Assembly: GCA_001913845.2 (NCBI GenBank)
Contig: MKGP02000047.1
Span: 1-64,000, forward strand
Direction of reading: 5' to 3'
Source of the DNA: Limnothrix sp. CACIAM 69d
GTDB taxonomy: Bacteria; Cyanobacteriota; Cyanobacteriia; CACIAM-69d
DNA: 64,000 bases
Position numbers and translations under genes: made by a program. Below the pieces are notes generated by a model, which ran no database searches, had not been told where the DNA came from, and saw only the letters and a program-made list of their open reading frames with translations. This document shows, in pieces, positions 11,654-18,785 of this stretch; the stretch's first letter is position 1, and every line of letters begins with the position of its first letter.

Positions 11654-14600
11654 CTAGGAGACCGGCTTGGGTTCCGAGGAAGACGCGGCATCCCCTGGCG
11701 GCGTTGGGCTGGGGCGATCGGCTCCTGGGGGCTGCCCGATCGACTGGGCCGCCAGGTATTGATAGAACCGCCAGCGGTGGTTAATGTCCGCCTGGGCCTG
11801 TTGGGCCAACTGTTGCGCGGCGGCCGGGTTGGTCTTGCTCAACATTTTGAAGCGGGTTTCCATGTCCATGGCCGCCGCCACAGGCATCTTCGGCGCGGGC
11901 GAATCCAAATGCAGCGGATTTTTGCCCTGGGCCACCAAATCCGGGTGATAGCGATAGAGGAACCAACGACCGCTATCCACCGCAGCTTTCTGGTGAGTCG
12001 TTCCCTTGCTCATATCAATGCCATGGGCAATGCAGTGGCTATAGGCCAAAATCAGCGAGGGGCCGTCGTAGGCTTCGGCTTCCAGAAAAGCCCGCAGGGT
12101 ATGTTCATCACGGGCCCCCATGGCCACGCTGGCCACGTAGATGTTGCCGTAGGTCATGGCGATCGCCCCGAGATCTTTCTTGGCGGCGGGTTTCCCACCA
12201 GCGGCAAACTTGGCCACCGCGCCTCGGGGGGTTGATTTTGAAGCTTGCCCCCCCGTGTTGGAATAGACTTCCGTATCCAAAACCAACACATTGACGTTTT
12301 GGCCGCTGGCCAGGACATGATCCAAGCCGCCAAAGCCAATGTCATAGGCCCAACCGTCACCCCCCACAATCCAGACAGATTTCTTGACGAGGTAGTCTGC
12401 CACGGCCAACAACCGCCGAGCATCGGGGTGATTGATCTCGGGGAGGCGGGTTTTCAGGCTGGCCACCCGATCGCGCTGTTCCCAAATTTCCGCTTCGGTG
12501 CGCTGTTCCGCCTGCAACAGATCTTGAACCGTGTTGTCACCCAGTTCCCCGGCCAACCGCTTCAGCAGCTCGCTGGCGAAGGTGGCTTGCTGATTCACGG
12601 ACAGGCGGAACCCAAGGCCAAATTCCGCGTTGTCCTCAAACAGGCTGTTTGCCCAGGCGGGGCCGCGGCCATCGGCATTTTTAGTCCAAGGGGTGGTGGG
12701 CAGGTTGCCGCCATAGATTGAGGAGCAACCGGTGGCGTTGGCAATCAATGCCCGATCGCCAAACAATTGGGACACCAACTTTAGGTAGGGTGTTTCGCCG
12801 CAACCGGCACAGGCCCCTGAGAATTCAAAGAGCGGCTCTTGCCATTGCTGTTGACGCAGCCGATCGGGATGTAATTTGGTGCGATCGGGATTCGGCAGCC
12901 CCAAGAAAAAGTCCCAGTTTGTCCGCTCTGCGTCGCGCACCTCGTTGGGGTTCACCCAATTCAGCGCCTTGCGAGAGGGGCGCTTGCGATCCTTCGCGGG
13001 GCAAATTTCCACACAAAGACCGCAGCCGGTGCAGTCTTCCGGAGCCACCTGAATGGTGAATTTTTCGCCTTTGAAGTCTGGGTCGCGCGTGTCGGCCACC
13101 CGGAACCCGGCCGGCGCATCTCCCAAAGCGGACGGATCGTAGGATTTGCCGCGAATGGTGGCATGGGGACAAATGGCGATGCACTTGCCACACTGCACGC
13201 AAACCTCTGGATCCCATTCGGGCAGTTGCTGGGCAATGTTGCGTTTTTCCCATTGGGACGTGCCCGTGGGATAGGTGCCATCGCAGGGCAAGGCGCTCAC
13301 CGGCAGTCGATCGCCCTCCCGAGCCATCATCGCCGCCTGCACATTGCGCACAAAATCCGGCGCGCGATCGGACACCATGGGCAACCGATGCAAGGTGGAT
13401 TGGGCCGATCGAATCGGCACCTCTTGCAAATTCGACAGGGTGTTATCCACCGCCCGCAGGTTCATATTCACCACGGCGCTACCTTTTTTGCCGTAGGTTT
13501 TTTGAATTGCCGCCCGAATTTGATTGAGGGCTTCTTCCTGGGGCAACACCCCCGTCAAGGTGAAGAAACAAACCTGCATTGGAATATTAATGTGACCGCC
13601 CGTGCCACTCTCGCGAGCCACTTTATAGGCATCAATTGCCCAAAGTTTCAGTTGCTTCCGAATGATGATTTCTTGGGCCTCTAGCGGCAAATGATCCCAA
13701 AGTTCCGCCGCCGGATAGGCCGCGTTGATCAGCACCGTTGCTCCATCAAGGGCCTTGTCCAAAATTTCATAGCGTTCCAGGAACATCCACTGGTGACAGC
13801 CAATGAAATTCGCACCTTCAATTAGGTAAGGGGCCCGAATCGGGTCAGCCCCAAAGCGCAGGTGGGAAACGGTCATTGCTCCCGATTTCTTGGAGTCATA
13901 GACGAAATAGCCCTGGGCATATTGATCGGTACTGTCGCCAATAATTTCGATCGTGTTTTTGTTGGCTCCCACGGTTCCATCGGCCCCCAAGCCATAGAAA
14001 ATGGCTGCAAAGGTGCGATCGCCCGGCAAAGCAAAGTTGGGGTCAAAGTCCAAGGATGTGAAGCTCACATCATCCACAATTCCCACCGTGAATCCATTCT
14101 TGGGTTCCGGTAATTGCAGATTTTCAAACACCGCCTTCACCATGGCCGGTGTGAATTCCTTGGAAGACAATCCATAGCGCCCACCGATCATCGTTTTAAT
14201 CGCTGAGTGTTGCGCCGATTGTTGAACCGTTGCCACCACGTCTAGATAAAGCGGTTCGCCCAATGCACCGGGTTCCTTGGTGCGATCGAGAACGGCAATG
14301 CGTTGGGTACTGATGGGCAATACGGCGAGGAAATCCGCCGCATTCCAGGGGCGATATAAACGAACTTTCAAGACTCCCAATTTCTGTCCCTGTTGATTCA
14401 GGGCCTGCACCGTTTCTTCAACGGTTTCGCAACCGGAACCCATCAGAATCACCACGGATTCTGCTTCCGGATCACCCACATATTCAAAGGGCTGATAAAC
14501 CCGTCCCGTCAGATTGCCAAATTCCGCCATCACGGATTTCACAATTTCCGAACAAGCAAGATAAAACGGATTAACAGTTTCCCGACCTTGGAAATAAACA

Positions 14601-15271
14601 TCGGGGTTTTGGGCCGTGCCACGCATCACCGGGCGATCGGGTGTTAGGGCCCGATCGCGGTGTTCCAAAATTGCTGTTTCCGGGATCATGGCTCGCAAAT
14701 GATCTTCATCCACGGGAACGATTTTTTGAATTTCGTGGGAAGTCCGAAAGCCATCAAAAAAGTGCAAAAACGGCACTCGAGATTTCAAGGCCGCAATGTG
14801 GGAAATCGCAGCAAAATCATGGGCTTCTTGCACCGAAGCCGAACACAACAGCGCCCAACCCGTGCCCCGCGTGGCCATCACATCGCTGTGATCCCCAAAA
14901 ATTGACAACCCTTGGGCCGCAAGCGATCGGGCAGCCACATGCAAGGTCGCACCGGTCAATTCCCCGGCAATTTTGTACATGTTGGGAATCATCAACAGCA
15001 ACCCTTGGGAAGCCGTGAACGTGGTGGCCAAGGATCCCGCCTGGAGCGCCCCATGCAGCGTGCCCGCCGCTCCGGCTTCGCTTTGCATTTCCACCACGCT
15101 CGGCACAGATCCCCAAAGATTGGGCTTGTTTTGAGCTGCCCAAGCATCAGACCATTCCCCCATGGGCGAAGCGGGCGTAATGGGGTAAATAACAATTAGT
15201 TCACTGAGACTGTAGGCAATTTTGGCAACGGCTTCGTTACCATCAAGAGTCATGGTTTGGTAGCGTTTCAT
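11654..15271 (-). CDS. nifJ: Pyruvate:ferredoxin (flavodoxin) oxidoreductase
   Basis: Oxidatively decarboxylates pyruvate to acetyl-CoA and passes electrons to ferredoxin or flavodoxin; cytoplasmic homodimer with thiamine diphosphate and three [4Fe-4S] clusters. Visible parts: N-terminal YPITPASPMGE pyruvate-binding motif; ferredoxin-like domain with CVQCGKCIAICPH and CTGCGLCVEICPAK; and the thiamine diphosphate region with GACAGCGETPYLKL, NATGCSSIYGGNLPTTPW and GGDGWAYDIGFGGLDHV. About 1205 residues, normal for a fused one-chain enzyme. The ATG at 15271 is preferred because GGAG lies eight to ten bases upstream; an ATG two codons earlier and another at 15295 are alternatives. It follows hoxW by 48 bases on the same strand and ends before the DHOD-like gene, so it is probably co-transcribed with the hydrogenase genes. 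Confidence 0.97.
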   Translation of the reverse strand: MKRYQTMTLDGNEAVAKIAYSLSELIVIYPITPASPMGEWSDAWAAQNKPNLWGSVPSVVEMQSEAGAAGTLHGALQAGSLATTFTASQGLLLMIPNMYKIAGELTGATLHVAARSLAAQGLSIFGDHSDVMATRGTGWALLCSASVQEAHDFAAISHIAALKSRVPFLHFFDGFRTSHEIQKIVPVDEDHLRAMIPETAILEHRDRALTPDRPVMRGTAQNPDVYFQGRETVNPFYLACSEIVKSVMAEFGNLTGRVYQPFEYVGDPEAESVVILMGSGCETVEETVQALNQQGQKLGVLKVRLYRPWNAADFLAVLPISTQRIAVLDRTKEPGALGEPLYLDVVATVQQSAQHSAIKTMIGGRYGLSSKEFTPAMVKAVFENLQLPEPKNGFTVGIVDDVSFTSLDFDPNFALPGDRTFAAIFYGLGADGTVGANKNTIEIIGDSTDQYAQGYFVYDSKKSGAMTVSHLRFGADPIRAPYLIEGANFIGCHQWMFLERYEILDKALDGATVLINAAYPAAELWDHLPLEAQEIIIRKQLKLWAIDAYKVARESGTGGHINIPMQVCFFTLTGVLPQEEALNQIRAAIQKTYGKKGSAVVNMNLRAVDNTLSNLQEVPIRSAQSTLHRLPMVSDRAPDFVRNVQAAMMAREGDRLPVSALPCDGTYPTGTSQWEKRNIAQQLPEWDPEVCVQCGKCIAICPHATIRGKSYDPSALGDAPAGFRVADTRDPDFKGEKFTIQVAPEDCTGCGLCVEICPAKDRKRPSRKALNWVNPNEVRDAERTNWDFFLGLPNPDRTKLHPDRLRQQQWQEPLFEFSGACAGCGETPYLKLVSQLFGDRALIANATGCSSIYGGNLPTTPWTKNADGRGPAWANSLFEDNAEFGLGFRLSVNQQATFASELLKRLAGELGDNTVQDLLQAEQRTEAEIWEQRDRVASLKTRLPEINHPDARRLLAVADYLVKKSVWIVGGDGWAYDIGFGGLDHVLASGQNVNVLVLDTEVYSNTGGQASKSTPRGAVAKFAAGGKPAAKKDLGAIAMTYGNIYVASVAMGARDEHTLRAFLEAEAYDGPSLILAYSHCIAHGIDMSKGTTHQKAAVDSGRWFLYRYHPDLVAQGKNPLHLDSPAPKMPVAAAMDMETRFKMLSKTNPAAAQQLAQQAQADINHRWRFYQYLAAQSIGQPPGADRPSPTPPGDAASSSEPKPVS

Positions 15272-15319
15272 GGTCATCACTCCAGCAAAAGGCACAGGGA
15301 AGAACAGCGGGTAATTGAT

Positions 15320-16056: not shown

Positions 16057-17496
16057 CTAGGACGATCGTTCCAAGGTCTGAATCAGTACCCGATCGGCAT
16101 TGAACACATCTAGTTTCAGTGGCATTTGCCCCACCGCATGGGTTGAACAACTTAAGCAAGGATCGAAGGCTCGAATTCCCGCTTCAACTCGATTCAAAAT
16201 TCCCTCTGGAATCGATCCATCGCTGCTGCCTTCCACATAATGTTGAGCAATTTGTTTGATGGTACGATTCATCGCCAGGTTATTTTGACCCGTGGCAATG
16301 ATCAGATTCACCGATTGAATTAAGCCGTTTTCATCCACTTGGTAATGGTGAAACAATGTGCCCCGAGGTGCTTCACTCACACCCACTCCATTCAGTTCAT
16401 TAATACCGGCTTCCGCCCGCACCCGTGACGACTGCACATCAGGATCATTCACTAACTGTTCGATCGCCTCAACACAGGCCAAAATTTCAATCAATCGAGC
16501 GTAGTGATAGAAAAACGAAGAAGTAGCCACTCGCCCGCCGGCCCGCTGTCTGAATCGCTCCAGGGCCCGATCGGCTTCTGGTGTGCCAATGAAGTCACAA
16601 ATATTCAACCGAGCCAGGGGCCCGACACGATACACCCCATCGGGATAGCCCAAGGGTTTGTAGTAGGGAAACTTCAGATAAGACCAGGGTTCAACGGCTT
16701 CACCAATGAAGGATTGATAGTCATCTTCCGAAAGGCGATCGGCGACAATTTGCCCTTCACTGTCAATGATGCGGAGATGCCCACCGTAATGCTCCCAGCG
16801 CCCGTCGTCACCCACCAAACTCATGAAAAGCGATGGAAATTTACCAAACACATCGACTTCCACCGGATGGGCATCCAGCCACGATTCAAACAGTTCGATC
16901 GCGCTTAAAATTGTGGCTCGCGATTCCGGCAATCGGTCTTGAATCCAAGCTTTTCCTTCATCGGACAAGGGATAGCGAACCCCGCCAGGAACCGGCCAAG
17001 CCGCATGAATTTTGCGCGCTCCCAACAGCTCAATCACCGTTTGGCCAAACTGCCGCAACCGAATCCCCGCCCGCGCCAAGTCCGGATTCGCCGCCATTAA
17101 TCCAAAAACATTGCGCTGGCCTGGGTCACTGTCCCAACCCAGCAGAAAATCGGGACTGCTGAGATGGAAAAAGCTGAGGGCGTGGGATTGCAAAATTTGC
17201 CCCAGGTTCATCATCCGCCGCAACTTTTCACCCGCGATCGGGACACGCACGGCCAAGATTTTGTCGCCGGTTTTTGCAGAGGCCAACAAGTGACTCACGG
17301 GGCAAATACCACAGATACGGGAAGTAATGCCCGCCATTTCCCACATGGGTCGCCCTTCGCAGAATTTTTCAAACCCGCGAAATTCAACCACATGAAAGTG
17401 GGCATCTTCGACTTTTCCCGCATCATCCAAAAATAGGGAGATTTTGGCATGACCTTCAATGCGGGTGACCGGATCAATAACCAGTTTAGAACTCAT
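16057..17496 (-). CDS. hoxH: Bidirectional [NiFe] hydrogenase large subunit HoxH
   Basis: Catalytic subunit carrying the NiFe(CN)2CO site; reversibly interconverts H2 and protons. The N-terminal nickel motif is [10 protein letters not shown] (about residues 60-69). The C-terminal motif is [12 protein letters not shown], followed by a tail of about 20 residues ([12 protein letters not shown] onward) that HoxW should remove. 479 residues, typical for HoxH of the NAD-linked group 3d enzymes. The start ATG gives the conserved [22 protein letters not shown]-like insertion of about 217 bases separates it from the rest of the operon upstream, while hoxW follows after 152 bases. Confidence 0.97.
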
Positions 17497-17595: not shown

Positions 17596-17813
17596 TAGAA
17601 AGTGTCTGAGCAGTTCTTTGGGTAATTGCAAGGCGTTAGTCATCGTGGGAGCAAGGGTCTTAAGCCCCTTGTTTTGTTTAAGCCTCTTGTCTTGTTGAAG
17701 CTCCTTATTTTGTGTGCGGGAGCAAGGGGCTTAAGCCCCTTGTTTTTGTTAATGTCTTCGTCAATCCACGAGAGATGCAAAGTGACCGTTTTGGCTTTTC
17801 AAGCATTCTCTTA
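17596..17813. mobile_element. MITE-like repeat, copy B/C (two cores)
   Basis: Bounded by imperfect inverted ends: TTAGAAAGTGTCTGAG at 17595-17610 and CAAGCATTCTCTTAA at 17800-17814. It holds two cores: CAAGGGTCTTAAGCCCCTTG at 17652-17671 and the perfect palindrome at 17723-17742, 71 bases apart, so part of the element is duplicated. Its right end (GTGACCGTTTTGGCTTTTC) matches that of copy D (GTAACAGTTTTAGCTTTTC). It lies inside the hox operon and supplies the stop codon of the FPD-repeat gene. Confidence 0.7.
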
Positions 17814-18173
17814 AGTCAAGCCAGGAAAGCTGGTGACAAACTGAATTTTGAGGTCAGGAAATGCCGTCACAAATTTAATTTTGAAGTCGGGGAAAGCATT
17901 GACAAATTGCCACTCACCACACCGATCGGGAAATGCGTTGACAATCTGCACTTTCAAATCGGGGAATGCTTCAACAACCTGCACCGTAAAATCGGGAAAG
18001 GATTCGACAATTTGCACCTTGCCAAAGAGAGGACGCTCTTTGTATTGACAGGTGCTGGGGGAATTGGCCCTGGCTCCTAAGCTCCAGAGGGATAAGATCA
18101 GCCCGATCGCCCCAATCAAGAGTCCCCTCGAAAGCGAAAGTCGCCAGGGTTGCCGCCGTCGATCGCCTGCCAT
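17811..18173 (-). CDS. Secreted FPD-repeat protein encoded in the hox operon
   Basis: A 120-residue exported protein. A basic N-terminus and hydrophobic segment (GLLIGAIGLILSLWSLG) form a signal peptide ending near GARANS. The mature part is almost entirely six 11-residue repeats: KVQIVESFPDF, TVQVVEAFPDL, KVQIVNAFPDR, (CGE)WQFVNAFPDF, KIKFVTAFPDL, KIQFVTSFPGL. Alternating hydrophobic and polar residues followed by FPD suggest stacked beta-strands, as in a small solenoid. Two Cys (CQYKERP and RCGEW) could pair. It starts 15 bases after the hoxY stop on the same strand, so it is co-transcribed. Its last codons run into the end of the MITE-like element, so the original C-terminus may have been longer. 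I know of similar FPD-repeat proteins elsewhere but no assigned function. Confidence 0.75.
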   Translation of the reverse strand: MAGDRRRQPWRLSLSRGLLIGAIGLILSLWSLGARANSPSTCQYKERPLFGKVQIVESFPDFTVQVVEAFPDLKVQIVNAFPDRCGEWQFVNAFPDFKIKFVTAFPDLKIQFVTSFPGLT

Positions 18174-18188: not shown

Positions 18189-18785
18189 CTAACCAAATTT
18201 CAGCTTGGCTGTTTGGGCTTCGCCGGTAAAAAGTGACTCCAGGGCGCTTTGAATTTGGGCAGCTGAGGGCGGACAACCGGGCAAAAACACATCCACCGGA
18301 ACCACTTGATGCACGGGCAAGGCCTGTTTAATTAAGGGCGGCACAATGCCCGGCTCTCGAGGATATTGCGGTGATAAATCCGCCAATTCCAGATAGCAAC
18401 GATCGAGAATTTCTTCGACGGTGGCACTCGGATTGCGCATGGCCGTTACGTTGCCATTCACCGCACAATCACCAAAGGAAATTAACAGCTTGCTGCGCGA
18501 TCGTACCTTTTGGATGAATTCCAAGTTTTCCTCATTGGCAACGGCTCCTTCTGCCAGGCAAATATCCACCTGATCGGGAAAAATCTTGGCATCACTGCCC
18601 ACGGGGCTAAACACCACCTCCGCATATTTTGCCAGCTCAAACAGCCATTCATCTAAGTCCAAAAAGGACATATGACAACCGGAACAGCCCCCTAACCAAA
18701 CGGTTGCAAAGCGCAATTTTTTGGGGCGATCGGCTCCTTCGGTTTCGACAACAGCTCCTGGGGCGGGATTGGTTAGCGTGTCCAT
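18189..18785 (-). CDS. hoxY: Bidirectional hydrogenase small subunit HoxY
   Basis: Carries the proximal [4Fe-4S] cluster that links the NiFe site to the diaphorase module. Cluster ligands are Cys34 and Cys37 in GGCSGCHMS, the Cys of SFGDCAVNG and the Cys of FLPGCPPSA. At 198 residues it is the short, single-cluster form of group 3d enzymes, lacking the medial and distal clusters and the export signal of uptake-type small subunits. It overlaps the end of hoxU by 13 bases, indicating translational coupling. Confidence 0.96.
   Translation of the reverse strand: MDTLTNPAPGAVVETEGADRPKKLRFATVWLGGCSGCHMSFLDLDEWLFELAKYAEVVFSPVGSDAKIFPDQVDICLAEGAVANEENLEFIQKVRSRSKLLISFGDCAVNGNVTAMRNPSATVEEILDRCYLELADLSPQYPREPGIVPPLIKQALPVHQVVPVDVFLPGCPPSAAQIQSALESLFTGEAQTAKLKFG

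Follow-up and report, generated by a model that had tools for sequence, protein, structure and literature searches.

The most complex protein knot known, a 7_1 knot, belongs to the Ureaplasma protein Q9PR55, for which it was predicted in 2022 with a knotted core at residues 27-83 (PMC9278004) and later confirmed by crystallography (PMC13352647, PMC11223836). The 2022 report gives one homologue, P73136, a protein of 112 aa with a predicted 5_1 knot, and no function (PMC9278004). Regarding the genomic setting, the closest described case is the hox operon of Synechocystis, in which the Ssl2420-Sll1225 toxin-antitoxin pair occupies the hoxY-hoxH junction, related insertions being present near hox genes elsewhere (PMC4963859). 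Another point of comparison is PHROG 6462, a group of phage proteins of unknown function.

The protein considered here is encoded between hoxY and hoxH in a 64,000-nucleotide stretch of DNA from Limnothrix sp. CACIAM 69d, referred to as the window. It is a new member of the known Q9PR55/P73136 kind, found in a new genomic setting, and its homology to a 7_1-knotted protein is the main point that was overlooked by the first-pass annotation of this DNA. Taken as a whole, the data are best read in terms of a Sec-exported protein of this torus-knot family that is carried as an accessory passenger in the hox operon, a reading to which we give a probability of roughly 0.72.

The reading frame and its repeats

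On the minus strand, the genes follow each other in the order hoxE, hoxF, hoxU, hoxY, FPD-repeat ORF, hoxH, hoxW and a pyruvate:ferredoxin oxidoreductase-type ORF. The FPD-repeat ORF encodes 120 aa from an ATG start and begins 15 nt behind the hoxY stop, as initially proposed (coordinates in Table 1), and a purine-rich, ribosome-binding-like stretch, GGGAGAGGGGG, is located upstream of its ATG. No paralogue was found when the same genome was searched. Compared to the same-genus genome G002, the ORF displays 14 synonymous and 2 replacement codon differences and is therefore under coding constraint, which points to a maintained protein subject to purifying selection. It could be argued that the frame is a chance or non-expressed one, or a decaying relic, given that neither Pfam nor NCBIfam assigns it to a family at threshold. 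However, this is contradicted by the codon differences, by the ribosome-binding-like leader and by the existence of homologues at about 40-98% identity across several phyla, making such an explanation extremely improbable.

Table 1. Positions in the window of the FPD-repeat gene, its parts and its neighbours
Feature	Position	Strand	Basis
Exported FPD-repeat protein (predicted export), homologue of Q9PR55 (7_1) and P73136 (5_1)	17811..18173	-	ORF; phmmer, profile and Foldseek matches
Signal-peptide-like N-terminus, residues 1-36, predicted cleavage after Ala-Arg-Ala	18066..18173	-	Hydropathy; low-confidence model helix; homologue leaders
Mature region, residues 37-120, six predicted strands, two groups of three 11-residue units	17811..18065	-	AF2 model; period-11 test
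Cys42, first of the co-varying cysteine pair	18048..18050	-	Homologue co-occurrence
Cys85, in the CGEW break between the halves	17919..17921	-	Homologue co-occurrence
hoxY, upstream neighbour	18189..18785	-	Pfam PF01058
hoxH, downstream neighbour	16057..17496	-	Pfam PF00374
Two copies of a dispersed palindromic repeat, in the ORF-hoxH interval, outside the gene	17647..17752	.	Repeat search

The mature part of the protein shows a lag-11 self-identity of 30 matches, while shuffled versions reach at most 17 (any lag from 5 to 29, 20,000 shuffles), and its units are laid out as 3 + 3 around the CGEW break. The previous description of six near-identical 11-residue units ending in (A/S)FPD is thereby upheld as far as the repeat is concerned, but has to be amended for individual units: FPD closes five of them but FPG the last, and the fourth, RCGEWQFVNAFPD, is 13 residues long and contains the motif RCGEW. 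Outside the gene, the palindromic repeat listed in Table 1 has a core, CAAGGGGCTTAAGCCCCTTG, of which the genome holds 317 copies with up to one mismatch; the two copies in the window are missing from the same interval in G002.

Family membership and predicted fold

The sole molecule matched in a sequence search of the PDB is Q9PR55/UU089.1 (8IWA and others; phmmer E 7.8e-10), and a profile built from 55 homologues likewise retrieves Q9PR55 only (E 2.9e-15). Since the profile match spans Q9PR55 residues 26-85, and the knotted core residues 27-83, the homology extends over the knotted core, and the FPD-repeat protein belongs to the Q9PR55/P73136 torus-knot family. The window protein also matches the PHROG 6462 profile (E 1.8e-30; residues 30-118 against profile positions 15-102 of 103). 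A Pfam match to SnoaL (E 0.02) fell below the cut-off and was rejected.

Both the window protein and Q9PR55 contain 11-residue V-x-SFPD-x-K-V repeats, and the knotted core of Q9PR55 aligns with residues of about 52-106 of the window protein. Q9PR55 has 89 aa, and the homologues nearest to it in layout are three Bacillota forms (L026-L028) that begin with MSYDK or MSYSK and possess neither a hydrophobic leader nor the cysteine pair. What sets the window protein apart from Q9PR55 is its leader, its Cys pair, the CGEW break and one additional C-terminal unit. As for P73136, which we take from its accession range to be a Synechocystis protein, its predicted core (residues 45-94) has its counterpart in the window protein at about residues 53-102. 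A homologue of the same length, 112 aa, is found in the cyanobacterial genome G217; it shares the leader, the two cysteines and the six units of the window protein, and aligns to the latter without gaps through all repeats. The hoxY-hoxH gap of G217 holds an 86-residue ORF and a 142-residue PIN ORF, resembling the pair described for Synechocystis, and, judging from length and context only, this homologue is presumably P73136 itself. It differs from the window case in that its gene lies about 105 kb from hoxH.

The structure prediction recommended by the first-pass annotation was carried out with AlphaFold2. With 24 sequences, the repeat domain reached a pLDDT of about 97 with models that agree poorly, and with 55 sequences and the leader removed, a mean pLDDT of 92.4 and a pTM of 0.80 were obtained (five models at 89-92), that is, a confident mature fold matching Q9PR55. 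When compared to the PDB with Foldseek, both models had only the Q9PR55 entries (8IWA/8IWB/8JRM) as significant matches (E 1.8e-6 and 3.4e-6, TM by target 0.64 and 0.63, 43-44% identity), all other fold matches having E > 1. For the 55-sequence model, this corresponds to a probability of 1.00, E 3.4e-6, a TM of 0.59 by query and 0.63 by target, an rmsd of 3.3 A and 44% identity. A fold search of BFVD gave no significant match.

According to these models, the window protein shares the fold of the solved 7_1-knotted structure. As AlphaFold can misjudge topology (PMC10672856) and as the winding number varies within the family, we only infer the presence of a 5_1 or 7_1 torus knot, and the TM of about 0.6 together with the rmsd of 3.3 A may leave room for a different winding number. 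In this context, the protein could also be an unknotted homologue of Q9PR55 with similar local structure, its chain being open or less wound. Such a reading would be in line with the TM of only about 0.6 to 8IWA, with the variation between 5_1 and 7_1 knots inside the family (PMC9278004) and with the unknotted members of some knotted families (PMC11184937, PMC11223836). It is nevertheless rather improbable in view of the profile match across the knotted core of Q9PR55 and of the gap-free alignment of the P73136-like G217 protein through the repeats.

Leader peptide and cysteine pair

The N-terminus of the window protein is composed of a basic n-region, a hydrophobic core around residues 17-33 and Ala34-Arg35-Ala36 ahead of Asn37. 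The signal peptide first noticed in the 120-residue protein is thus corroborated by an n/h/c layout with an AxA site, the call being made from composition and hydropathy only. A helix is modelled by AlphaFold2 at residues 16-31 of the leader with low confidence, and, the Bacillota branch excepted, the N-terminus is hydrophobic in most homologues.

Equivalents of Cys42 and Cys85 are both present in 39 of 62 homologues and both absent from 21, the two mixed cases, one each way, including a truncated sequence. This co-occurrence (Fisher p 2.6e-14, a statistic that ignores relatedness) fits a disulfide between the two residues in an exported protein. In L024 and L025, two of the 21 homologues devoid of the pair, the cysteines are placed differently, with one immediately ahead of the first repeat and another at the C-terminus. 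That the N-terminal cysteine would be able to pair with either site suggests that the start, the middle and the end of the chain are close to one another, which is what a chain running round twice, at three units per turn, would give.

Relation to the hydrogenase genes

HoxH is found in 127 of 390 Cyanobacteriia genomes and the FPD gene in 15. Among the latter, eight have HoxH and seven do not, compared to 119 with HoxH among the 375 gene-negative genomes, a difference that is not significant (Fisher p 0.09). The gene sits between hoxY and hoxH in only three of the 127 HoxH-positive genomes, namely the window genome, G002 and G004, all from one family. It is therefore not an accessory gene conserved across cyanobacterial hox operons, and it was found in none of 40 hox loci sampled from other genomes. 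In the five other genomes that have both genes (G183, G217, G258, G314 and G319), the FPD gene and hoxH are on separate contigs or no less than 100 kb apart, so that the placement at the junction is seen in 3/3 such genomes of the window's family and in 0/5 outside it. Three further members of this family, G001, G003 and G005, are devoid of HoxH and carry the FPD gene at another site.

The first-pass annotation proposed to ask whether homologues sit in hox operons more often than expected by chance, and left two explanations side by side. Among the 390 Cyanobacteriia, the association with hox is local, being confined to the window's family. Its idea that the protein links hydrogen metabolism to an envelope function is left without support by the rarity of the junction placement, by the value of p and by the seven gene-positive genomes without HoxH; these same genomes, the three placements out of 127 and the unrelated neighbours in other phyla favour its other idea, a passenger captured by the operon. 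The FPD gene is thus probably an operon passenger rather than a component of hydrogen metabolism.

A different view would be that the gene was recruited to hox as a lineage-specific partner of the hydrogenase, encoding an envelope protein that is thereby made under fermentative, low-oxygen conditions. The 15-nt spacing from hoxY, the placement in all three HoxH-positive genomes of the family, which belong to two genera, the copies at another site in its three HoxH-negative genomes, and the unrelated small leader-bearing cysteine proteins found at the same junction in L072 and L083 are all compatible with such a partner. On the other hand, the remaining 124 HoxH-positive genomes do not have the gene at the junction, it is far from hoxH in the five genomes outside the family that have both, and its co-occurrence with HoxH (p = 0.09) falls short of significance, and we regard this view as unlikely. 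The junction proteins of the two genera are about 52% identical; the unconstrained tree separates the G004 copy from the window copy, a single clade not being rejected (p 0.45), so that the tree is compatible with one capture into hox as well as with two. That the gene has been kept at this place in two genera speaks mildly for a local advantage of co-expression with hox. All in all, a hydrogenase-specific role is disfavoured, with a possible residual local link in the window's family.

The hoxY-hoxH junction

In 37 of the 40 sampled hox loci, hoxY could be read beside hoxH, and in 18 of these 37 the gap measures at least 300 bp. The ORFs found there are of various kinds, comprising a CBS-CP12 fusion, PIN toxin-antitoxin pairs, two small leader-bearing cysteine proteins and others. 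Such gaps and their varied, unrelated ORFs imply that the junction often holds extra genes, the FPD gene being one of them. In this respect, it resembles the Ssl2420-Sll1225 case, where extra genes lie at the same junction within the hox transcription unit, but differs from it in that the latter is a PIN-domain toxin-antitoxin pair without sequence relation to the FPD protein. Sll1225/Ssl2420 was considered as the Synechocystis homologue at the same junction and rejected on this ground.

Of the extra genes located between hoxY and hoxH in cyanobacteria, the most frequent is an ORF of about 205 aa that encodes a CBS-CP12 fusion (L070, L075, L090, L095, L097, L098 and L100-L103), assigned by Pfam in L095 only and by resemblance in the nine others. 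Short CP12-like ORFs occupy the gap in L088 and L089. The small leader-bearing proteins of L072 and L083 have several cysteines, no Pfam match and no relation to the FPD family. At the other end of the hox genes of the window, the pyruvate:ferredoxin oxidoreductase-type ORF (11654-15295, named from its sequence) is large and follows hoxW on the same strand after 24 nt, and a fermentative electron source and the hydrogenase may thus share a transcript.

Distribution and carriage by prophages

The FPD family is sparse and wide, occurring in cyanobacteria, Bacteroidota, proteobacteria, Myxococcota, Leptospiraceae, Bacillota and prophages. Besides the Cyanobacteriia, the gene was detected in 8/198 genomes of the phylum sampled around a Bacteroidota genome, in 3/249 around Marinicella and in 3/250 around a Ruminococcus genome; E. 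coli genomes gave no match. The gene is likewise present on non-mobilizable replicons of Leptospira weilii and Burkholderia, and a search of plasmids gave three matches that extend over two thirds of the query. A neighbour conserved across phyla was sought and none was found, shared neighbours being limited to close relatives. In a Bacteroidales homologue (L011:4920-5531), two tandem FPD domains are present in one chain, which makes it a candidate composite torus knot.

In IMG/VR, 12 contigs contain the FPD gene, and phage genes adjoin it in four of the five that were checked: Rz spanin and Q antiterminator in L130, terminase and tail in L134, and baseplate hub and tape measure in L127 and L133. 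The fifth, L125, has a transposase only. L135 also lies among prophage genes and shares its source genome with L134. No match was obtained by tblastn in the phage GenBank collection with the window protein and a prophage homologue as queries. The members of PHROG 6462 differ from the window protein in being phage-borne, and many of the prophage homologues found here have no cysteine pair. The occurrence in prophages fits an accessory cargo gene. Judged by sequence, the family would be large, mostly exported, often equipped with the cysteine pair and partly phage-borne, which we have not found stated in the literature examined.

Proposed mechanism and significance

In the model that we favour, the FPD-repeat protein would be translated with the hydrogenase (hox) mRNA, exported unfolded by Sec and cleaved after Ala36, whereupon it would wind into a 5_1 or 7_1 torus-knotted beta domain outside the cytoplasm, the knot being pinned by a Cys42-Cys85 disulfide. 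Its gene would be an accessory, horizontally spread one, held in a hoxY-hoxH junction that often carries extra genes. The product would most likely serve at the envelope as a highly stable protein with a binding or protective role, a proposal drawn from the leader peptide and the cysteine pair, and would most likely take no part in hydrogenase catalysis or maturation.

More tentatively, and with odds somewhat below even, the family as a whole could be a widespread, so far unregistered group of exported torus-knot proteins (5_1 or 7_1), whose knot is tied after Sec passage, outside the cytoplasm and without cytosolic chaperones, closed by a disulfide and partly moved by prophages. If this is true, the knot becomes covalently trapped, giving a lasso-like topology. 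In any case, the protein with the most complex knot, so far treated as a near-orphan, now gains dozens of relatives, of which the majority bear export signals and paired cysteines and some are found in prophages. They form a natural series in which one may ask how a 5_1/7_1 knot ties, whether it does so outside the cell, what use it has and how the number of windings evolves. With regard to hydrogenases, an odd ORF of the hox operon is explained, and the hoxY-hoxH junction is shown often to hold extra genes.
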